In this document: one piece after another, positions 25,422 through 62,213 of the stretch | Position numbering within the stretch: position 1 is the first letter of the stretch | Layout: every line of letters starts with the position of its first letter | Assembly (NCBI GenBank): GCA_025359945.1 | Contig: JANYDD010000012.1 | Location: 1-64,000, forward strand | Origin: Bdellovibrio sp. | GTDB lineage: Bacteria; Bdellovibrionota; Bdellovibrionia; Bdellovibrionales; Bdellovibrionaceae | DNA length: 64,000 nt | Direction of reading: 5' to 3' | Notes under the pieces: model-generated | Database searches by the model: none | What the model was told of the DNA's origin: nothing | The model's input: the letters and a program-made list of their open reading frames with translations, nothing else | Position numbers and translations under genes: made by a program

Positions 25422-28400
25422 CTAAATATTTCTTCGATACTGACCACCGACTTCGTACAGGGCTTGGGTCATTTGGTATAAGGAACAGCTTCGCGAAGCC
25501 TGCATCAATGCTTCAAAAAGATTATCACCTTTAAGCGCCGCTTTTTTTAGCTTTTCAATCTCAACCTGACTTTGATCCAGATGCTTTTGCTGAAAATCCT
25601 GCAGATGGGTTAACTGTTCATTTTTTTCCTCATACGAGGCTCTGGCCATTTCGATTTTCGCGGGCACAAAATCTGCCTTTAAAGTTTTGGGATCGACAAA
25701 TGTATTGACCCCAATGATCGGAAGCTCGCCGTTGTGTTTCAGGGTCTCGTAGTACAAAGATTCTTCCTGGATTTTTGAACGCTGGTAGCCGGTCTCCATC
25801 GCGCCTAAAACTCCCCCTCGCTCGTTGATTTTTAAAAATTCATCTAAGACGGCTTCCTCAAGTTTTTGAGTCAATTCTTCAGAAAAATAACTGCCCTGCA
25901 ATGGGTTTTCGTTGATCGAGGTGCCAAACTCGCGATTAATTATCATCTGAATGGCCATGGCCCTGCGAACACTTTCTTCTGTGGGGGTTGTGATCGCTTC
26001 GTCGTAAGCATTGGTGTGAAGTGAATTGCAATTATCTTGAATCGCAATTAACGCCTGCAAAGTCGTACGAATATCATTAAACGCAATTTCTTGCGCGTGC
26101 AGCGAACGACCGCTGGTTTGAATATGATATTTTAATTTTTGTGATCGATCGTTGGCCCGATACAAGTCTCGCATCGCAATGGCCCAAATTCTGCGGGCGA
26201 CACGACCCAGGACCGAGTATTCAGGATCCAATCCATTACTAAAAAAGAACGACAAGTTCTGCGCAAAATCATCTACCTTCATCCCGCGCGCCAAATAATA
26301 CTCAACAAAAGTAAACCCATTGGAAAGAGTAAAGGCCAACTGACTGATCGGATTCGCACCGGCTTCTGCAATATGATATCCCGATATCGAAACTGAATAA
26401 AAATTACGTACCGAATTTTGAATAAAATATTCTTGGATATCGCCCATCATCTTCAGTGCAAATTGAACGGAAAACAAACATGTGTTCTGACCTTGGTCTT
26501 CCTTTAGAATATCAGCTTGAACGGTACCTCGAACGGTTTTTAAGGTCTCGCGCTGGACCGTTTGCCATTCTTCGGCGTTAAGCTTTCTGTTGAATTCTTT
26601 TTCTTTTTTAACGACTTGCTGATCAATCGCGGTGTTAAAGAAAAACGCCAGAATCATCGGCGCCGGCCCGTTAATCGTCATCGAAACGCTGGTCAATGGC
26701 GCGCACAGATCAAACCCCTGATAAAGTTTTTTCATGTCATCTAAGGTGCAAATGCTGACACCGCTTTCGCCGACTTTTCCAAAAATATCAGGGCGCAAAT
26801 CAGGATCTTGTCCGTACAAAGTCACGCTATCAAAAGCAGTGGAAAGCCGCTGGGCTTTTTCGCCTTCACACAAATAATGAAAGCGTCGATTGGTCCGGGT
26901 GGGTGTGCCCTCGCCGGCAAACATTCTTTTGGGGTCTTCGTCCGTGCGCTTCAGCGGAAACACGCCGGAAGTATAAGGAAATTCGCCGGGCACATTTTCT
27001 AGCCGTAAATAATTAAAACGATCACCCCAGTCGCGAAGTTTTGGCACAATCACTCGACGGATTTTCGTTCCACTCAGGGATTTTTTGACCAACGACTGGC
27101 TAAATTTTTTGCCACGCACTTCGAAAACAAAATCATCGCCCGAATACTTGGCTAAAAGTTTGTCGAAATGTTCCAGAGATTCAAGCTCGTCGGCTGTGAA
27201 TTCTTTTTTTAGCAATTCCTCAGTATTTTGCAGAGCTGGTGCATCTTTCTGCAATTCACTCTTGTCCTTAGATTTGAGCTTTTGAAGCGACCCTAAAAGT
27301 GAGGCCTTTTCCGATAGGTCGTGCGTTCTTTTTTTGTAATCGCGAACCGTAGACACAATCGAAGCTAAATAATTTTGGCGCTCTGACGGTAAAATCCGAT
27401 TTTCCTTTGCGGCTATTAGTGAATTTTTAATTTCGGAAGTCAGTTTCCATCCTTGAAATTTTTGTTCCAGCAAATCTGTCAGTTTAAAAAAAAGCTCATT
27501 CACACCCGAATCATTAAATTGCGACGCTTGGGTTAAAAATACTGGCGCTGGAGCTGGACCTGGACCTGACGAATCGAAAAGTTTTCGCGAACGATTGTAC
27601 TGTTTGGTGACATCACGAAGTGCGTCTTGCGACCCTTTGCGATCAGACTTGTTGATCGCAATCAGATCCGCAAAATCGATCATATCGATTTTCTCAAGCT
27701 GCGAGGCCGCGCCATATTCAGACGTCATCACGTAGAGCGAAAGCGAACTGACTTCAGTGATGGCCATATTTCCCTGACCAATTCCGGAAGTTTCTGCCAC
27801 GATCAAATCAAAATCCATTAGCTGCAAGGCTTGCAAAACCCCGGGAAGACTTTGCGCGATCTCTTTCCCGGATCCTCGCGAAGCCAAACTGCGCATAAAC
27901 ACCCGATCACGTGATAGTGAATTCATTCGAATTCGATCACCTAAAAGGGATCCGCCCGTTTTGCGTTTGGAAGGATCCACACAGACGATCGCGACTTTCT
28001 TGTCGGGATAGACATTTAAAAACCGCTGCACAAGCTCGTCGATCAAACTGGATTTTCCTGCACCACCGGTTCCGGTCAAGCCCAAAATCGGAGCTTTAGT
28101 TTTTTTTCGATTCAGGAAACTTTCCAAACCCAAAAAGGGAATTACTTTCGAAGCTTCAAATTTATGGCCGTCGCTGTTTTCAACCTGTGTGAGCAGCATT
28201 CCAAGGGCAAGGGACGGAATGGGTTCATTTTTTTGTTGTCCATCAGACTGGTGGCCAGACTGGTGGCCAGATCTTTTGGTGCCAAGGGTTGCCGACAACT
28301 CTGTCGACTTTGTTCCCACAGAGACCTCCATCGGCGAAGCTGGCAGTTCGAAGTCACATTGTTTGATGATCATCTGGATCATGCCCTCGAGGCCAAGCCT

Positions 28401-28784
28401 GCGACCGTCATCCGGGTGAAAAATCTGCGCGATCCCATAGGCTTCGAGCTGCTTTTTTTCTTCGTAAACGATTACCCCACCACCGCCACCGAAAATCCGA
28501 ACGTATCCAGCGCCGGCTTGATCCAAAAGATCTTTCATGTATTTAAAATATTCCATATGTCCGCCCTGGTACGAGCTAACACAAACTCCTTGCGCGCCTT
28601 CCTGCAATACTGCTTTCACCACATCATCGACGCTGCGATTGTGGCCCAAGTGAATCACTTCGGCGCCAAAATCCTGTAAAATTCGACGGATAATATTTAT
28701 CGTGGCGTCGTGCCCATCAAACAAAGATGCGGCGGTCACGATGCGGATAGGATTTTTTCTTTTGTAATCTTCCAGTGGAATCAT
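25422..28784 (-). CDS. icmF: Fused isobutyryl-CoA mutase IcmF
   Basis: 1120 residues in IcmF order. An N-terminal adenosylcobalamin domain carries DGHDATIN with the cobalt-binding His25. A MeaB-like G-protein chaperone domain has the Walker [10 protein letters not shown] (238-246) and a base-specific INKSD. A mutase substrate domain contains [20 protein letters not shown]. The enzyme interconverts isobutyryl-CoA and n-butyryl-CoA (or isovaleryl and pivalyl forms). The linker at about 172-182 has a short internal duplication (GHQSGHQS). It is translated three bases after an enoyl-CoA hydratase stop and belongs to an operon with hbd. Confidence 0.95.
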
Positions 28785-49743: not shown

Positions 49744-50247
49744 CTAAATTCGAGCCTCAGTGACTGCCGCCTGACCCCTGGTTTCTTCGACCGAGACCCT
49801 AACCCCTTTAACCCTTAAATTGCTACACCGGTCTAATAACTTGCGCGCCAAAATCTGGGAAAGATGTTCGACGCTGGTGTTCTGAACGTCCAGCAAAATC
49901 ACCTCGTTTTCTGGAAAAACGTAAAGTCTTTCCCTAAACCGCACCTCAAGGGACGGCGAAAGGATCTTGAATTTCATTTCAGGATGCGCTTTAGGCAGCA
50001 GCACGTGTTCATCCCATTCATCGACAGTGGCCTTGATAATTTGCTTTAAAGCCCTAAAATCCGCGTGATAACCGGCAGCAGTAAGCGTTCCGGAATTGCT
50101 GAAATCGATCTCAACCTGCACCTGATAATTGTGGCCGTGCAATTTTTCGGCACTCTGAGAGTCAAAGATCAGAAAATGAGCTGACGAAAATTTAAAACTG
50201 TCCTTGAAGAGTCGAAGGGAAGTTTGCAGTTTTGCCGATGTATCCAT
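49744..50247 (-). CDS. 6-pyruvoyl-tetrahydropterin synthase family, PTPS-III-like (Cys lost)
   Basis: 167 residues. The fold motifs FKFSSAHFLI, LHGHNYQVQVEI, DEHVLLP and VEHLSQILARKL are those of the PTPS/QueD family. The catalytic Cys of QueD (C-x3-HGH) is Ala here, in AEKLHGHNY, while the adjacent Glu is kept as in PTPS-III enzymes that replace FolB in folate synthesis; this assignment is inference from the motif. It is divergent from a QueD-type paralogue that keeps the Cys, with 74 bases between starts. The metal ligands (His of SSAHF and the two His of HGH) are present. Confidence 0.75.
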   Translation of the reverse strand: MDTSAKLQTSLRLFKDSFKFSSAHFLIFDSQSAEKLHGHNYQVQVEIDFSNSGTLTAAGYHADFRALKQIIKATVDEWDEHVLLPKAHPEMKFKILSPSLEVRFRERLYVFPENEVILLDVQNTSVEHLSQILARKLLDRCSNLRVKGVRVSVEETRGQAAVTEARI

Positions 50248-50321
50248 TTGAACTTTCTTTCGTTGAGGTCATTGGAATTTCAATAAAAAACAGTTATACC
50301 GGCAAGGCCAAGGAGCCGACA

Positions 50322-50696
50322 ATGCTTTTCGAACTTTTCGAAATAAAAAATCAGTTTCGCTTAGAGTCTGCACGTCACTTGCCACGACTTTCCAAGGATC
50401 ACCCTTGCGCAAGAATTCATGGCCACAGCTTTCAGATTGTCACCTGTTTGCGTGGGCCCTTGGTCAGCGACCTAGAATGGGTTCGCGACTACCACGAAAT
50501 TACAACAACCGTGGAATCTTTGTTAAAAACTTTGGATCACCGTTTACTGAACGAAATTCCAGGCCTTGAAAACCCTACGACCGAAAATTTATGTCGCTAT
50601 TTGTTTCAGAATTTAAAATTAAAATTGCCGCAACTTTATCAGGTTTCGATCAAGGAAACCAGCACTACTGAGTGCATTTTCCCGGTGTATGCTTAG
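50322..50696 (+). CDS. queD: 6-carboxy-5,6,7,8-tetrahydropterin synthase QueD-like
   Basis: 124 residues from the ATG at 50322, six bases after AAGGAG; an earlier in-frame start at 50232 lies in the divergent promoter space and has no ribosome site. RLESARHLPR, CARIHGHSF (C-x3-HGH), LDHRLLNEI, ENPTTENLCRYLF and KETSTTEC give all metal and catalytic positions of QueD. It makes 6-carboxy-tetrahydropterin for queuosine. No other queuosine gene lies in the window. Confidence 0.87.
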   Translation: MLFELFEIKNQFRLESARHLPRLSKDHPCARIHGHSFQIVTCLRGPLVSDLEWVRDYHEITTTVESLLKTLDHRLLNEIPGLENPTTENLCRYLFQNLKLKLPQLYQVSIKETSTTECIFPVYA

Positions 50697-54656: not shown

Positions 54657-57134
54657 TCACTGCGACTTTTGATCTTCTGCGACAGGATCCAAAGGAATTT
54701 CGGCGGGCTGGACTTCGGAACTGCCTTGTTTCCTTAAGAATTCCTCTAAAGAAGCTTTTTCCATTTTTTGAATTCGGGCCCAGTTTTTAGCAGAGCCCAA
54801 GACCTCGGTAATTTCTTTGACGGTCTCGGCTTCGTAATCGCGCATCCGCTTAATTCCTTGTTCAAGATAAAACTGATCAATGGATTTTCTCAATTCGCCT
54901 AACTGAATCACCAAATTGGCTTCCTTGGCCACGTAACTGACGATCGATTCTTCGTTCAGACCCATCGATCTTAAAAATTCAAGATCATTCAACTTCTGAG
55001 TCCACAGGTTAGTGTAAACTTGGTTTGTTTTAACAAACAAATAGTGCCTATTGTAGATCACATTGTCGGTGTAATTGCCGCGATATTTGTCATCCTGGGG
55101 CGGGTTGAAAACTGCCTGTTTTTTTCGATCATCCATAATTTGTTTGGCATAGGAATTTTTCCCGGCTTTTTCAAAAAACATTTGAATACTTTCTTTTTGC
55201 CACAACCCAACCACCAACAAAAAACTAGCTGCTAGGGCCGATCCCCATTTCAAATTTTTTAATCGTTTCTTTTGTTTTTCTTCGGGGTTTGAAGTCAAGT
55301 GTTCCGTCTGAACCCGAATCTGAGTTTCAGAATTGTGAAGAATTTCTTGAGTCGCCTGCAAAACCAAATTTTTAAACTGAGACAAGACTTCAGGCCCCGT
55401 CACCTTCTGCGCTTGCAAAAAAGGGATCAACTTAATTTCAAGACCCCTGGCCAATTCTAAATTTTGATTTTTTCTCACCTCTCGGATTTTTTTCTCTTCA
55501 ATAAGAATCAGTTTTTCGATCTCTGCCAAAGCGTTCATGCGATTCTGCGCCAGCTCCTCGATCTGGGCTTTCTTTTGGTTTTGAAATTCCAGCAGACTTT
55601 TTTCTTTTTGTGAAAGAATCTCTTGGTCCGCGGAATTTTTTCTGGATTCAATATCGCGATTTAAACGATCCAAGGACTTTTGCAGTGTGAGCAGTTCTTC
55701 TTGAAGTTTTTCTTTATTGGATTGAACCTGGTTTTTGCTTTCGATCAACGCCAAGACCTTATTGCGATCATGACTGAGAAGTTCGATCGATTTCTCAAGC
55801 TCACCTTGAGACTGGAGAAGCTTTTTTTCTAAGCTTTCTAAGCCTGTTTTTTTTACAATTATAAGTTCAAGCTGTTTTTTTTCGGCATTCAAACTTTGTC
55901 CTAGTTCTTCTTTTTCGTCTTTCCATTGATCGATTTCTTTTTTGTATTGAAAGATCACTTTCCTTTGCAGATCGTGAGATTCTCTTTCAACTGTTTTCAA
56001 ATGATCGGCTCGTAAATTTTCAAGTTCGTTATGCAAAAGCAGCAAAGACTTTTGCTTTTCAGATTCAAAGTCTTGTTGAGCTTGGTTAACTTTTTTCTGC
56101 GCCAACTCTTGAGCTCGAGCCAGGATTTGGGCACTTTCCTCTTGAGCTTCTTTAATTTTTTGTTGAAGATCCGCTTGCCATTTTTCTTGCTGCAGGAAGT
56201 TTTCTTGTTTTGCTTGAGCGACCAGCTCACTGGCCGCAATTTGGGCCTTTTGAATCAGCGCTTGGCCCTCGACCTCGAAGTTAAGCATTTTTTGGCCGAG
56301 TTCTGCTTGTTGCGCCATCACTGATTGTTTTTGGCGATCGATCTCAACTTGTGCTTGAACTTTCAACTGCGCAGCATCGGCAGTGGCAGTCTGCATCAGT
56401 TTTTTTCTTTGATCCTGAGCTTCGGCGATGGCTTGATCGCTTTGAATCCTGGCCTGACTTTTCATTTGGGATGCTTCATCGGCAGCTTGGTCCCGAATTT
56501 TCTGGGCTTCAAGTTCGGCTTTCTGAATTATTTTTTCGGCTTCGGCATCCATCGAATTCATTTTTCGTTGATATTCTAAAACGCCCTCGCGAATTTTTTG
56601 CTCTTTTGTTTCTATGCCTTCTTTTTCGGCCTTCTTCAGCGACAATTCTGCCTGGGATTTTATTTGAGTCTCTTGTTGTAGCTTGATCTGAGCCCATTTT
56701 TCTTTTTCAACCTGAAGGCTTTTTTGAAGTTCTTTTTCCAAAGTTTTTTCCAATTCGGAAAGCATCATCTTCAAGGATTTTCTCTGTTCTTCCAGGGGCA
56801 AGAATTCAAGGGGCTTGCTAAAACAAGAAAATTGAAAGGTGTCTTCGGATTGCCCCAATTGAACCCAATCTTTGGCTTGCAAAAGAATTTTAGACTGGGC
56901 CGGCACTTGTTTTCCATTCAAGAAAGTGCCGTTAGCTGAACCCAGATCTGTTAAAAAAATATCCTGACCCTCGAGTTCAATGCGCAGGTGAAGGCGACTG
57001 ACGCTGGGTAAGGGTAGCGGCAAATCGGCTTCTTGCGATCGGCCTAGCTGAAAACTATTCTTGTCCAACAGATGAGTGACGATCCCCGTTCCCGTTTTAT
57101 GTTGAATCAAGCATAAATGAGAAAAAGGGACCAT
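54657..57134 (-). CDS. FHA-domain protein with very long coiled coil and membrane anchor
   Basis: 825 residues. An N-terminal FHA domain (about 20-95) shows FQLGRSQEADLPL, SVSRLHLRIE and LTDLGSANGTFLNGKQV, the conserved phosphothreonine-binding Arg, Ser and Asn. Residues of about 105-615 are heptad-rich coiled coil. A single membrane helix (WGSALAASFLLVVGLW, about 632-650) follows, then about 175 residues of probable periplasmic domain. GAGGAG precedes the ATG. It is the last intact gene of a five-gene operon with an ExbB/MotA-like and an OmpA/MotB-like protein, so it may be a scaffold that grips phosphorylated partners at the motor. Confidence 0.8.
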   Translation of the reverse strand: MVPFSHLCLIQHKTGTGIVTHLLDKNSFQLGRSQEADLPLPLPSVSRLHLRIELEGQDIFLTDLGSANGTFLNGKQVPAQSKILLQAKDWVQLGQSEDTFQFSCFSKPLEFLPLEEQRKSLKMMLSELEKTLEKELQKSLQVEKEKWAQIKLQQETQIKSQAELSLKKAEKEGIETKEQKIREGVLEYQRKMNSMDAEAEKIIQKAELEAQKIRDQAADEASQMKSQARIQSDQAIAEAQDQRKKLMQTATADAAQLKVQAQVEIDRQKQSVMAQQAELGQKMLNFEVEGQALIQKAQIAASELVAQAKQENFLQQEKWQADLQQKIKEAQEESAQILARAQELAQKKVNQAQQDFESEKQKSLLLLHNELENLRADHLKTVERESHDLQRKVIFQYKKEIDQWKDEKEELGQSLNAEKKQLELIIVKKTGLESLEKKLLQSQGELEKSIELLSHDRNKVLALIESKNQVQSNKEKLQEELLTLQKSLDRLNRDIESRKNSADQEILSQKEKSLLEFQNQKKAQIEELAQNRMNALAEIEKLILIEEKKIREVRKNQNLELARGLEIKLIPFLQAQKVTGPEVLSQFKNLVLQATQEILHNSETQIRVQTEHLTSNPEEKQKKRLKNLKWGSALAASFLLVVGLWQKESIQMFFEKAGKNSYAKQIMDDRKKQAVFNPPQDDKYRGNYTDNVIYNRHYLFVKTNQVYTNLWTQKLNDLEFLRSMGLNEESIVSYVAKEANLVIQLGELRKSIDQFYLEQGIKRMRDYEAETVKEITEVLGSAKNWARIQKMEKASLEEFLRKQGSSEVQPAEIPLDPVAEDQKSQ

Positions 57135-57164
57135 TCTAACTCCTCAAACAAAAGGCAATGCGTT

Positions 57165-58145
57165 CTATGCGACTTTACTTTTCTTAGTCGTCGGATTTTC
57201 AGGGTTTATGTTTTCACTGTCCATATCGCGGCTGAACTGGCGTCGACTGAGTTCTTGATTCAGCGAGGCCTCGGCCAAAGCTTCGAAAGGATCTTTGTTC
57301 TCGTCAAATCGATAAGCTCCAACGGGCACTTCGTTCGAGTTTGAATAGTTCCACAACAAATCCAATGAATTTTCAAAACGATCCACAATGTCCACGAAAA
57401 CGCGGTCCGGATTGAACACCGAATTCACTAGCGTCATGATCACACTAAACAAAATCCCCATCAGCGAGGCCCCCATCGACAAAGCAATATCAATCAAAAA
57501 TTGATCCATAATCGCTTTGGTTTTTTCGGGGTCATTCAGGTCCATGCCGCTCAGTTCAGGTAAACCCTTCATCACGCCCAGGAAGGTTCCAAAAATTCCA
57601 CCGATCACAAACAGACCCGGCAAAATGCTGAGCAAGTCGTTCGTCGAACCGATCGGAACAATTCCAAACACCCGGTTAAAACAAGGATTCTTGCTAAAGG
57701 TATTCTTGGTGATATTAATCAGCTTAGGTGGCTGTGATCCGTACCTTAGGAATCGAATTTGTTTTAACACATCGTGCACTAACCAAGCACAACCCATTTT
57801 GATCAAAAAAAATCGATCACTGGCCAACATCACTTGGTCGGGCTTTCGTCGCTTTAGTTTTTCTCGGTTCTCAAAAACTTCAAAAAATGTTTTCTCTAAA
57901 AGTCTTTTTGAAATCAGAAAAAAAGAAATATTTTCTGATTTTTGCGGAGCTTCCGCTTGCAAAAAGCGCCCTACCCTTTTTTCAAATTCGCGGCCAAACC
58001 AATCGTGTCGTCTGACCGTGTAGTAGATCATCAATCGAAAAAAGATCCCAAAGACCAGCGCGCTGATCATGATCGGAAAGTGAACAGTCTTGGCGACAAC
58101 CACCACGCTGTCCATAATTGAGTGTACGGCTGCTTCTAACGCCAT
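57165..58145 (-). CDS. MotA/TolQ/ExbB-like proton channel protein
   Basis: 326 residues with three membrane helices: about 20-42 (FPIMISALVFGIFFRLMIYY), about 170-195 (SILPGLFVIGGIFGTFLGVM) and about 210-245 (IDIALSMGASLMGILFSVIM). The layout, the Gly-rich second helix and the SMGASLMGILFSV third helix fit the MotA/TolQ/ExbB channel family. A cytoplasmic loop of about 120 residues lies between helices 1 and 2. It is encoded directly after the OmpA/MotB-like gene (10-base gap) and before the FHA coiled-coil gene. AAGGAG precedes the ATG. Confidence 0.85.
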   Translation of the reverse strand: MALEAAVHSIMDSVVVVAKTVHFPIMISALVFGIFFRLMIYYTVRRHDWFGREFEKRVGRFLQAEAPQKSENISFFLISKRLLEKTFFEVFENREKLKRRKPDQVMLASDRFFLIKMGCAWLVHDVLKQIRFLRYGSQPPKLINITKNTFSKNPCFNRVFGIVPIGSTNDLLSILPGLFVIGGIFGTFLGVMKGLPELSGMDLNDPEKTKAIMDQFLIDIALSMGASLMGILFSVIMTLVNSVFNPDRVFVDIVDRFENSLDLLWNYSNSNEVPVGAYRFDENKDPFEALAEASLNQELSRRQFSRDMDSENINPENPTTKKSKVA

Positions 58146-58155
58146 AGTGGGCTCC

Positions 58156-59814
58156 TTAATCTTTCAGCGTGAACTTGATGATCACGCGTTGAAGTTTGGC
58201 ACAATCGTTTTTCATGCAAAAGGCCTCGCCTTTTCCCGCAGCTTGAAAATTTTTATTTTTTTCGTGCGATAAAAAGGATCGACCTGTCACTTTTACTAAC
58301 GGTTGCAACTGCTGTTGATTTTTAAATTTCATTTTATCAAAAACGTGTTGAAAAATCGACCGCGCACGAGAATAACTTAAATCCAGATTATAATTCACGG
58401 CCTGTCGATCGCCTGCCTCTAAACTGGAAGGATCGATGTATTTGCCTTTGTAAGTCGGCGAAGCAAACCCGACGATTTCCACCGACTGAATTTTTTCGGC
58501 GACCTTTTGGTTCTCAAACAAACTGGCCGAGTAAACCGGCATCGCCTGTTCTAAGATTTTTTTCATTTCATTTTTCAAAGTTGCTTTACCCGTATCAAAG
58601 TATTGATCTCCGAACGAAAGAACCACGTCGCCCGATTCTGGATCCACGTCGGCATCGACGCCGTTAGCAGAGAAATTCTTTTTGATCTGATCTGCTAGTT
58701 TACGTTGCGCGTTCAGCCGCTCTGTAGCCTTAGCCAAATCTTTTTGAGAGCCCTGATATTTTTTGTCTAAAGCCGCCACTTTCTCGCCAAGCTCGCGCTC
58801 GCGGCGCTGAGCCTCGGATCGAAACTGCGCTTCTCGCTTCACCTTTTCAGCCGCAGAAAGTTTTTCTTTTTGAAGAGCTGACTCGAACTGCGCGCGCTCT
58901 TTTTCCTTTTGCTTTGCAAACTGGCCTTTTAGACTTTCCATTTCTTGTTGATACTTGGCCTGAGTGCCGGTCAATTCATCTTTAAGGGCTGACTTCTCTT
59001 GGCCCAATTTAGCCACCTGAGATTTTGTCTGATTTAAATCCTGAGCCGTTTTTTGCAATTCTTGCGACGTCTTTGCCAGGTCTTGAGCCACTTTTGAATT
59101 TTGGCTTTTTAGATTTTGTATTTTTTGATCGATTTCTCGCCTTAAGTTAGTTTGTTCAGCTTCAAACTTTTTCTTGGTCAGCTTTTGATTTTTGTAAGCT
59201 GATTTCAACTGTTTCAAACGATTGTTCAGTTGATCTTCCAAAGTCTCGATCTTTTTCTCGCCTTGAGCTAGCTGCGATTTTTTCTGGGCCACAGTTTTTT
59301 CTAAACCCGAAATCTCTTCGTCTTTTTCGCCAATAATTTCTTCTTTGGTATCAATCAAAACATCGCGGTTTTTAATTCGACCTTTGGCAATCACATTCGA
59401 ATTAATAATATTTCGAATCATTTGTTGATATTGGTTCAAGGCTTTTTCTTTATTTTCATTTTCAAGCGCCTGGTTTCGTAGCTTTATTTTTTCGTCCTTA
59501 GATTCTTCTTGCAGCAAATCTAGTTTGGACATCAAAGCTTGGTAGGCTTCTTTTTCAGAATCAGAAGCTTCTTTGTCCATATAATTTTGCTTTAAATTAT
59601 TATAAACTTTAATCTGCTGGCGAAGATCTTGAGTTTCTTTGACCAATTGCTTGTTCTCTAAAAACTGGCGAATCCCGTCTGTCCCCTGCCGCAGCGAAGC
59701 CGCAACATAAAGAAGCAAGAAAATAATCGATAGACCCAAAAACAAATCCGAGTACGATGTCCACATCGAATCTGAAGAGTGAGATTCTTTATTTTTTTGA
59801 TACTGAAAACCCAT
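58156..59814 (-). CDS. MotB-like protein with coiled coil and OmpA peptidoglycan-binding domain
   Basis: 552 residues. A short cytoplasmic tail is followed by a single membrane helix (DLFLGLSIIFLLLYVAAS), which begins with Asp23 in the place of the proton-carrying Asp of MotB. A coiled coil of roughly 340 residues follows, then an OmpA-like domain (about 395-550; VVLSFGDQYFDTGKATL, VEIVGFASPTYKG, NLDLSYSRARS). MotB usually has a much shorter linker. Pairing with the channel gene downstream gives a stator-like unit that could grip peptidoglycan far from the membrane. Confidence 0.85.
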   Translation of the reverse strand: MGFQYQKNKESHSSDSMWTSYSDLFLGLSIIFLLLYVAASLRQGTDGIRQFLENKQLVKETQDLRQQIKVYNNLKQNYMDKEASDSEKEAYQALMSKLDLLQEESKDEKIKLRNQALENENKEKALNQYQQMIRNIINSNVIAKGRIKNRDVLIDTKEEIIGEKDEEISGLEKTVAQKKSQLAQGEKKIETLEDQLNNRLKQLKSAYKNQKLTKKKFEAEQTNLRREIDQKIQNLKSQNSKVAQDLAKTSQELQKTAQDLNQTKSQVAKLGQEKSALKDELTGTQAKYQQEMESLKGQFAKQKEKERAQFESALQKEKLSAAEKVKREAQFRSEAQRRERELGEKVAALDKKYQGSQKDLAKATERLNAQRKLADQIKKNFSANGVDADVDPESGDVVLSFGDQYFDTGKATLKNEMKKILEQAMPVYSASLFENQKVAEKIQSVEIVGFASPTYKGKYIDPSSLEAGDRQAVNYNLDLSYSRARSIFQHVFDKMKFKNQQQLQPLVKVTGRSFLSHEKNKNFQAAGKGEAFCMKNDCAKLQRVIIKFTLKD

Positions 59815-59893
59815 TTTTTATCTCGTTTTTTAAAAAAAATTAAGTTTGACCCTTCTCTATCGGCGCAGATGTGAAAGGGTTCAAGTCCAGGTC

Positions 59894-60772
59894 TTACAGG
59901 CTGCTACTTTGGGTTTTGGAGATAGTTTCTTGGACCAAAGTACGGAGCTCATCAGCAGTTACGGCCGAAGGACTTCCTAGCGACAAGGAGTGGTTGGAAA
60001 GATACCACATTGCGAAAGCCACAAATCCTGCTAGCCCCAAAAAGGCCAAAGACTTTCGCGTCGAGCCTGATAAAATCTGAATTTTAAAATTCATGGAACT
60101 TAAACTGTTTTTGATTTTTTCCAAGGCGACTAAAAGTGGACTGGGGCCTTTTGGTTTTGGGATTTCAACTGGCGCCGGCCCCGCCTGTGAAGCCGCAATT
60201 TCACTGGAAACTTTGCGCGCTCCTCCGGGTGCAGGCTTAAGTTTGACACTTGGTCGGATCACTGTTTTTGCGGAAAAAATATCTTCCTCGGCTTGCGCTG
60301 ATGAATTCATCACAAAAGAGGCCGTGTTCTCTTCTTTTTCACTAGGCACATCCGAGCTTGCGAACTCAAACTCGGCGTCAATTTTTCGAGTGTTGGCAAC
60401 ATAGCCCTCGGTGTTTCTGGGGACTTGAGTTTTTTCCTCGGAAGGCAATCCATCAGAAAGCTCGATCGCTTGATTCTGAACTTCTTCTTCGATCAACCCG
60501 ACCAGTTCACCCAACTTGAAATTGGAATTTTTTGACAAAACAACTTGCGAGACTTTTTGGCCCGAAACCTTAATGCCGTTAACGCTTCCATTGTCGACCA
60601 AAACAATATCGTTGCCGCGCTTTTCGATTAAGCAGTGTACTCGGGAAATACTAGGGTGATTTAAAACGATTTCGTTTTCTGACGATCGACCCAACTTTAT
60701 CGGAAATTTCTTAAGCTCCATTTGCAGCAAGACTTTGCCCAAGGGGTCGATAAATTTAATTTCTTTTTTCAT
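59894..60772 (-). CDS. FHA-domain protein with C-terminal membrane anchor
   Basis: 292 residues. The N-terminal FHA domain (about 20-95) has IKLGRSSENEIVL, SISRVHCLIEKR and LVDNGSVNGIKVSG. A long acidic and Pro-rich linker follows, then a single membrane helix (SLAFLGLAGFVAFAMWYL) near the C-terminus and a short tail. It is encoded between the inactive protease-like gene (34-base gap) and the MotB-like gene (79-base gap). It may bring phosphorylated proteins to the same machine as the larger FHA protein. Confidence 0.8.
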   Translation of the reverse strand: MKKEIKFIDPLGKVLLQMELKKFPIKLGRSSENEIVLNHPSISRVHCLIEKRGNDIVLVDNGSVNGIKVSGQKVSQVVLSKNSNFKLGELVGLIEEEVQNQAIELSDGLPSEEKTQVPRNTEGYVANTRKIDAEFEFASSDVPSEKEENTASFVMNSSAQAEEDIFSAKTVIRPSVKLKPAPGGARKVSSEIAASQAGPAPVEIPKPKGPSPLLVALEKIKNSLSSMNFKIQILSGSTRKSLAFLGLAGFVAFAMWYLSNHSLSLGSPSAVTADELRTLVQETISKTQSSSL

Positions 60773-60806
60773 TCTAGCACCCTTTTTGAAATCAAGAGTG
60801 TTCTCA

Positions 60807-62213
60807 TTATTGATCCCCTTTGAAATCTTGCGCGACCTTCATGGCAATCTCGGCTGTATTGGCCGCATCAAATCCAGAAAGCTCGACTTTCAAAAGCTTA
60901 GTTTGGTCGCCGCCTTCAGATTGAACAACGATCAAAGACTTTTGAAATTCCGGTAGAAAGCGAAAACTGGCATTGCAAAACAGAAACTGTTTTTTTACTT
61001 CAATATTTTTTATATTTTTTTTCACACATTCCGGCGCTGTGTAGTAATCCGAAGCGGAATTGGCTCGCCACTGATCTTCAAGCTGAACGGTCTTGGTTCC
61101 CGCCGCTGTTTTCTTCAGCTGCAGAACTTGGTAATTGATTTCCCCGGCGCCAAACTGACTATGGATGTTGGGGCTAAGATGGTTTCGGCACGATACAAAA
61201 GAGTTTAAATTTTTCTGATCACAAGTGGTGTTGGATGCCAAAACCCCAAACTGAAAATCAGCTTCACGCAAAGCTCGACTGGCGCTGATAATTTCTTGAA
61301 AGCGTTTGGACTGAATTTGATTCCATTGCCCCTGCAGCTGCTTTTTCCACGATCCCACCGATGCAGGCTGTTTGGTGACCGAATCCAACATGGCCGCCAA
61401 GTTGGGCGAAGGCTGGGCCTGGATATAATCACTTTGCCCATGCAGACCCAAAAGAAAACCTTCGGGACTAAACACCGGCCCACCGATTTGCAAATCCTGA
61501 AATTCATTTTCCTTAAGTTGTACTAAAAAGGCATTAGTGAATCCTAAAACCAACCGCCGCGGATTGCCTGTTTTCGACGTGTACTCCGCGCGTTCAACAA
61601 AAGAGGCCGAATTCACTTCAGGCCTTAGCAACACGGTCTCGGCGTAAGTATCCAGCTGCAGAATCTGCGCCCGATAATATTTGTTCTGAGTGTAAATCAA
61701 AATCTGTCGATGAGTTTCGCCTGAGAAAAGTGCTGAAACATTTCTGATGTGAGTCGCCACCACGTACGGAGAAACAAAAAACCCGCTTCCCTCGGAAAAA
61801 GCGCTGGAATGGGCATCATAGGCAACCACAACTTTTACAACTGCGGGGGCATTTTTCCTAAAAACATCCGCATTAAGGGTCGGCTGGGGAGCCAAAACTG
61901 CCGTCACTTGTGGGAGCGGAGGGGGAATGTTCACAATTTTTTTAGCAGGTAAGACCAGCGCTTGGCGGATTAGAGGTTCATGAGGTTTTAATTTTTTTGC
62001 GAAATGGGTCGCTTTCAATGGTTTGGCGCGTTTCATTTTAAAAGTCATTTGCGGCACAGATGCCGGCCACTTTTTGACCGCTTTTTTAACCGGAACTACC
62101 GCGTTAGTTTTTTTTCCCTGGGCTTTTTTAAGGGTCTCAGCCACCGATCCTTCGACCGTAAAAAAATTAGAAAATAAAATGAGCGCAGACAAGCGCAAAA
62201 AAAACTTCTTCAT
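60807..62213 (-). CDS. Exported trypsin/HtrA-like protein, probably inactive
   Basis: 468 residues, first gene of the module. The signal peptide ends near SVA/ETLK. A Lys/Pro-rich N-terminal part is followed by a chymotrypsin-like domain: GSGFFVSPYVVATHIRN (His kept), then LDTYAETVLLRPE where the usual Asp is Glu, then LQIGGPVFSPEGFLLGLHG where the GNSGGP nucleophile Ser is Ile. With both catalytic Asp and Ser changed it is unlikely to cut proteins and may bind peptides or peptidoglycan-linked proteins. A C-terminal half of about 200 residues with two Cys pairs (TTCDQK, FVSCRNH, PECVKK, FLFCNAS) follows. Confidence 0.75.
   Translation of the reverse strand: MKKFFLRLSALILFSNFFTVEGSVAETLKKAQGKKTNAVVPVKKAVKKWPASVPQMTFKMKRAKPLKATHFAKKLKPHEPLIRQALVLPAKKIVNIPPPLPQVTAVLAPQPTLNADVFRKNAPAVVKVVVAYDAHSSAFSEGSGFFVSPYVVATHIRNVSALFSGETHRQILIYTQNKYYRAQILQLDTYAETVLLRPEVNSASFVERAEYTSKTGNPRRLVLGFTNAFLVQLKENEFQDLQIGGPVFSPEGFLLGLHGQSDYIQAQPSPNLAAMLDSVTKQPASVGSWKKQLQGQWNQIQSKRFQEIISASRALREADFQFGVLASNTTCDQKNLNSFVSCRNHLSPNIHSQFGAGEINYQVLQLKKTAAGTKTVQLEDQWRANSASDYYTAPECVKKNIKNIEVKKQFLFCNASFRFLPEFQKSLIVVQSEGGDQTKLLKVELSGFDAANTAEIAMKVAQDFKGDQ

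Follow-up and report, generated by a model that had tools for sequence, protein, structure and literature searches.

Do five neighbouring genes that bring together an ion-channel-type membrane protein and two FHA-domain proteins encode one envelope machine, or do only some of them belong together? The question is raised by a locus of Bdellovibrio sp. (assembly GCA_025359945.1, contig JANYDD010000012.1; here contig C3 of the 2.74-Mb Bdellovibrionota genome G000), situated within an analysed stretch of 64,000 nucleotides, referred to hereafter as the window. Five open reading frames (ORFs), named A to E in the order of transcription, are found on its minus strand between positions 54657 and 62213, exactly where an initial annotation had placed them, and are separated by short gaps of 34 bp (A-B), 79 bp (B-C), 10 bp (C-D) and 30 bp (D-E). 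That annotation had taken all five for a single machine. Comparison across relatives gave another answer: the conserved unit is the three genes C-D-E, in that order, and not five. For these three, the expectation was supported: they look like an envelope motor that is conserved, includes a membrane protein with an FHA domain and seems not to have been described. A scan of the operon junctions for promoters and terminators gave no signal clearly above shuffles.

Protein search with D revealed relatives in 142 of 291 Bdellovibrionota genomes. Ninety-nine loci were fetched and read, and D was sorted into a core group (profile score of at least 380 bits), a distant group and a small number of intermediates. 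Core counts refer to 76 loci, with genome G212 counted twice and one further locus stopping at a contig end. C was located directly upstream of D in 73 of these loci and E was the next same-strand gene after D in 71, with gaps among the three genes mostly below 60 bp. At locus L131 (genome G048), a gene missed by ORF calling was recovered by direct profile search, and at L157 an E-like gene was found one gene further on from D. It should be added that at L139 an ORF of 1931 amino acids (aa) without a match to E profiles stands after D in the expected place of E, and may be a diverged E. A contig scan detected two close relatives. The initial annotation had proposed gene order across relatives as the test of its module; the five-gene order was not kept, whereas the three-gene order was.

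The three genes also co-occur. Searches for the C-terminal domain of E recovered it from all four genomes with core D that were examined, and from none of the 24 that lack core D (19 without D, three with intermediate types and two with distant types). Similarly, C was absent in 16 of 18 genomes tested that have no D, the two exceptions being G089, in which the contig stops within C, and G021, with a weak coiled-coil match only. Because of these counts, C, D and E appear to have been gained and lost together, and since the set is conserved across the phylum, it is more than a chance neighbourhood. Gene order and co-occurrence, as well as the architecture and fixed residues described below, are seen in the sequence itself. 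The locus is present in genomes G073 (near 1,107.7-1,112.6 kb of the 3,782,950-bp chromosome) and G048, which are probably B. bacteriovorus HD100 and strain Tiberius, respectively. No paper describing it was found, including for the HD100 genes, in a search outside which most subscription literature lay; FHA partners go unmentioned in a survey of MotAB relatives from 2025 (PMC12505986).

The features of the three genes in the window are as follows.

C, 58156-59814, minus strand: 552 aa, MotB/ZorB-like subunit with one transmembrane (TM) helix carrying Asp23
Asp23 codon of C, 59746-59748, minus strand: proposed ion carrier in the TM helix
Proline-free coiled-coil stretch of C, 58675-59685, minus strand: residues 44-380
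OmpA-like domain of peptidoglycan (PG)-binding type in C, residues 381-552, minus strand
D, 57165-58145, minus strand: 326 aa, three-TM channel subunit of MotA/ZorA/ExbB type with a short C-terminal tail
E, 54657-57134, minus strand: 825 aa; FHA, long coiled coil, TM helix and helical tail
N-terminal FHA domain of E, 56853-57047, minus strand: Pfam FHA, 1.8e-16
Predicted coiled coil of E, about 500 residues, 55275-56822, minus strand
Weak TM helix of E (one), about 55200-55256, minus strand
C-terminal helical domain of E, about 160 residues, 54699-55112, minus strand

What kind of motor might C and D form? Hydrophobicity confirmed three helices in D and a single N-terminal helix in C that holds Asp23. 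In profile searches against PDB, all matches of D below an E-value of 0.1 were ZorA structures, with no other motor proteins matched, and the best matches of C were the ZorB chains 8vvi and 8qyd (1e-10 and 2.8e-8). Furthermore, the PADLOC ZorB1 model matched C at 9.8e-30 and NCBIfam ZorA models matched D at 4.5e-8, far under their cut-off. Residues P176, G183, G186, T187, F188, G190, M224, S227, G230, S234 and N241 are invariant in 31 sequences of D and include the Pro/Thr of TM2 and the Ser/Asn of TM3. In C, D23, N476, L479, S480, R483, C533 and C538 are invariant in 29 sequences, so the membrane Asp pointed out initially, Asp23, is fixed in 29 of 29. A channel with conserved TM helices and a one-TM partner with an acidic residue, the hallmarks of 5:2 motors, are both present. 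Taken together, C-D would constitute an inner-membrane, ion-driven motor of this class, most like ZorAB, for which we infer stoichiometry and rotation.

An Arg pair of ZorB is needed for PG binding (PMC11890865). Arg483 of C is invariant and position 543 is Arg or Lys in 28 of 29 sequences, and because the motif matches, the two may be likened to that pair, the equivalence being one of motif only. The invariant Cys pair (C533, C538) fits a periplasmic location. Long coiled coils had been predicted for both C and E, in agreement with their scarcity of proline (none in the 337 residues 44-380 of C; five in the 516 residues 105-620 of E) and with matches to coiled coils among the PDB profile hits. 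A periplasmic block of C at residues 121-140 (ALNKYQQMIRNIIN type) was considered as a docking site for E and rejected, since a similar block is retained in the C of intermediates that have no E.

The resemblance to ZorA and ZorB, the best-matching known families, raises the possibility that the locus is a new Zorya type serving anti-phage defence; we give this only a very slight chance. Scores remained far under the ZorA/ZorB cut-offs (32 of 250 and 31.5 of 100 bits for D; 33 of 400 for C), and none of 144 genomes exceeded the NF033915 cut-off. None of the effector genes ZorC/ZorD or ZorE adjoins C-D in the window, the third gene being E in nearly all core loci. Membership in Zorya was rejected on both grounds. 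Moreover, the chromosomal order is kept across the phylum, and the D tree mostly follows taxonomy; the flanking genes vary on both sides with no co-conserved nuclease, and a mobile or viral origin was rejected, as no match to plasmids (by tblastn) or to viral contigs was found. In this quick tree, core D formed one clade (support of 98 in the Shimodaira-Hasegawa-like approximate likelihood ratio test, SH-aLRT) and 14 of 15 distant rows formed another (100); its outgroup branches were long, and the position of the Zorya-like rows in it is uncertain.

E is the component that would set this motor apart. Its FHA domain, like that of B (1.9e-16), lies far above the Pfam cut-off, about 2e-16 in each case, as the initial annotation had read. 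The ligand-site residues expected of a phosphothreonine-binding FHA (GR, SxxH and NG) are conserved in E: G31, S46, H49 and G69 in 26 of 26 sequences, R32 in 24 and N68 in 22. The total length of E ranges from 465 to 1369 aa, with a very variable rod; the part following the best TM helix measures 152-198 aa in 65 of 66 proteins. This C-terminal domain is all-helical in AlphaFold2, with predicted local distance difference test (pLDDT) values of about 65-90 in the domain, and Foldseek returned no fold match at E ≤ 0.001. No TVV-type threonine motif that could serve as FHA ligand is general in E; motifs of this type (FDARTVV, DERTVV and EKTVV) were noticed in the proteins at the B position of L039 and L040 as possible FHA ligands. 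The window genome has two Hanks-type kinases, and an FHA-phosphothreonine switch is documented for Bdellovibrio DgcB (PMC6733907); with these kinases and this precedent, phospho-wiring would be available for E.

An FHA membrane protein beside a TolQ-like channel is also a trait of the Agl/Glt gliding machine of Myxococcus, whose GltG is an FHA/TonB-domain protein (PMC3169522), and Bdellovibrio glides; the FHA of B also matches GltG weakly. C-D-E as a gliding motor of this kind, or as a spare flagellar stator, is nevertheless improbable. E matches the NF033760 GltG model over the FHA only (31 of 650 bits). D reaches only 14 bits with PF01618, and no Glt genes stand beside C-D-E or were found among the window proteins scanned, so that no Agl/Glt cluster is recognisable here. 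Eight further genes of the MotA/TolQ/ExbB type are present in the genome, and D groups apart from them in the tree; several of them lie near FHA genes and are better Glt candidates. As a side observation, on contigs C44, C54 and C45 of this genome (L078, L080) only a few kb separate MotA/TolQ/ExbB genes from FHA genes, probably in Agl/Glt-like clusters.

The distant clade of D offers a hint on what the third gene does. In 13 of 17 loci of this sister clade (L073-L076 and L167-L175), a protein of 150-164 aa is encoded directly downstream of D, in the place of E, and is of the cyclic-nucleotide-binding type. The two tested matched the Pfam cyclic-nucleotide-binding domain PF00027 (5.7e-20 and 2e-17), and the remaining ones look similar by eye. 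C of the sister clade reaches 1758 aa in L076. As this domain is bare, with no effector part, the third gene is better understood as input than as output. Its presence where E would be suggests a swappable signal input. A broader picture follows tentatively, with somewhat less than an even chance: Bdellovibrionota would possess housekeeping, ZorAB-like rotary motors with exchangeable input, a phosphothreonine reader (FHA, coiled coil and TM helix) in the core clade and a reader of cyclic nucleotides in its sister.

The opposite direction of signalling deserves consideration. C-D-E might be a sensor of PG tension or damage on the Zorya plan, in which C feels PG and moves D, and the FHA arm of E recruits a phosphorylated cytoplasmic client. 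ZorAB, the closest relatives, have been modelled as inward-signalling, PG-sensing motors (PMC11890865), and the long cytoplasmic arm of E resembles the ZorA tail. The lone cyclic-nucleotide-binding domain in the sister clade fits an input better, and we regard the sensor as rather unlikely.

Our preferred reading, to which we attach somewhat better than even odds, is that C-D-E is a motor of the 5:2 class driven by proton-motive force, tethered to PG and gated by Ser/Thr phosphorylation through E. Beyond stoichiometry and rotation, we infer the docking of E on C-D, the direction of signalling and the cellular role. Five D subunits would surround a C dimer, and Asp23 would carry a proton (or another ion), driving rotation in the inner membrane, with the OmpA-like domain of C tethering the motor to PG atop an unusually long periplasmic stalk. 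E would cross the inner membrane as a third subunit dedicated to this motor, with the helical tail in the periplasm and the long coiled coil in the cytoplasm, replacing, as a separate protein, the long cytoplasmic tail built into ZorA. The FHA domain at the tip of the coiled coil would bind a phosphothreonine-marked partner, so that Ser/Thr phosphorylation might recruit or gate the motor via E as signal input, a part probably played in the sister clade by the cyclic-nucleotide-binding protein. The use would be envelope or surface work in Bdellovibrionota and not phage defence.

Several points weigh against this reading. A straight coiled coil of 340 residues in C would measure about 50 nm, exceeding the usual periplasm and posing a difficulty for the geometry of the stalk, and the TM helix of the window E is weakly hydrophobic (1.26). 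Neither third gene accompanies C-D in the intermediates L052, L062 and L064, so that the motor can exist without one. Gene adjacency alone is no proof that E binds C-D; its FHA could serve localisation only, or E could be output and not input. Vertical inheritance could likewise hold neighbours together without physical coupling, a view weakened by the loss of E along with C-D. As regards the predatory lifestyle, the module is absent from some genomes of the family, among them G005, which we guess to be Pseudobdellovibrio exovorus; if this identity is right, predation as such can probably do without C-D-E.

The two remaining genes complete the run.

A, 60807-62213, minus strand: 468 aa, exported protein of degenerate trypsin-like type, ending in a conserved four-Cys domain; neighbour specific to the lineage
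B, 59894-60772, minus strand: 292 aa, FHA at 60509-60697, low-complexity linker and one TM helix; lineage-specific, outside the conserved core

A and B form a pair of their own, which stands beside C-D-E only in the sublineage of the window. One machine of five components, as initially proposed, would have in its favour the same order and short gaps in three related genomes (the window, L039 and L040, the last cut at the contig start), which are nearest relatives in the tree. At all other loci neither A nor B adjoins C-D-E, and of 65 other genomes of the family only two (G292 and G271) had A-like genes, in both away from the motor and once without any: no D was found in G292, the assembly of which is 85% complete. 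We thus hold the five-component version to be very unlikely. Two FHA membrane proteins are also no trait of the module, for the B-position proteins of L039 and, by reading, of L040 lack a recognisable FHA. It had further been stated that no known motor locus contains two FHA membrane proteins; Agl/Glt does have an FHA protein, GltG, although only one (PMC3169522).

The description of A as an inactive trypsin-like protein holds by a chain of homology and not by a direct Pfam match, of which there was none. Its relative at L182 (G271) is an intact Trypsin_2 protein (2.9e-23) that shares the four-Cys tail of A. When the two are aligned, its active-site motif MSGGP corresponds to QIGGP in A. The catalytic triad of trypsin-like peptidases is thereby broken, with Ser replaced by Ile and the Asp position changed. 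The copy of G271 is intact, and those of G292 and the window are progressively degenerate. The AlphaFold model of A was poor (pLDDT 38) and was not interpreted. At L182:5437-7556 and L181:9501-11527, the gene for an exported trypsin-like protein with four Cys (intact in the former, degenerate in the latter) shares 4 bases with that of a membrane protein; these pairs are kin of A and perhaps of B.

Elsewhere in the window, two divergent ORFs with overlapping starts at 49744-50696 resemble, by reading, 6-pyruvoyl-tetrahydropterin synthase/QueD-type proteins, and an ORF of 1120 aa at 25422-28784 resembles a fused cobalamin-dependent acyl-CoA mutase and GTPase chaperone of IcmF type.

Relatives of ZorAB outside defence would reveal the work of such motors before phage defence arose or alongside it. 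If the broader picture of exchangeable inputs is true, Zorya would be one defence-adapted branch within a wider class of signal-gated envelope motors. The module is also an example of an ion motor that Ser/Thr phosphorylation or cyclic nucleotides may control. It can be tested directly, provided that G073 is indeed the model predator HD100.

How does C-D-E compare with known systems? The flagellar MotAB stator with its brake YcgR is likewise a PG-anchored ion motor under a separate signal-binding protein, with four TM helices in MotA against three in D, and PilZ in place of an FHA or cyclic-nucleotide domain; C-D-E has no link to a flagellar rotor. TolQRA and ExbBD-TonB (PMC9389320) have the same three-TM, TolQ-type channel of the 5:2 class and a third membrane subunit; in contrast to these, most of E would lie on the cytoplasmic side, C carries an OmpA-like domain, and Tol or Ton partners are missing. 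Agl/Glt (AglRQS with GltG; PMC3169522) shares the pairing of an ion channel motor with an FHA-bearing inner-membrane protein, while AglQ/S are TolR-like, GltG has a TonB domain, and tetratricopeptide repeat and outer-membrane parts are missing at C-D-E. The closest likeness is to Zorya ZorAB (PDB 8qyd, 8vvn and 8vvi; PMC11890865), with the same three-TM channel and a subunit of PG-binding type with a membrane Asp. Unlike in Zorya, D lacks the long cytoplasmic tail of ZorA, C has a stalk of about 340 residues, and the FHA gene E, at a conserved chromosomal locus, stands where ZorC/D or ZorE would be. Judging from these features, C-D-E would work like the ZorAB motor and is best filed beside Zorya, not within it.

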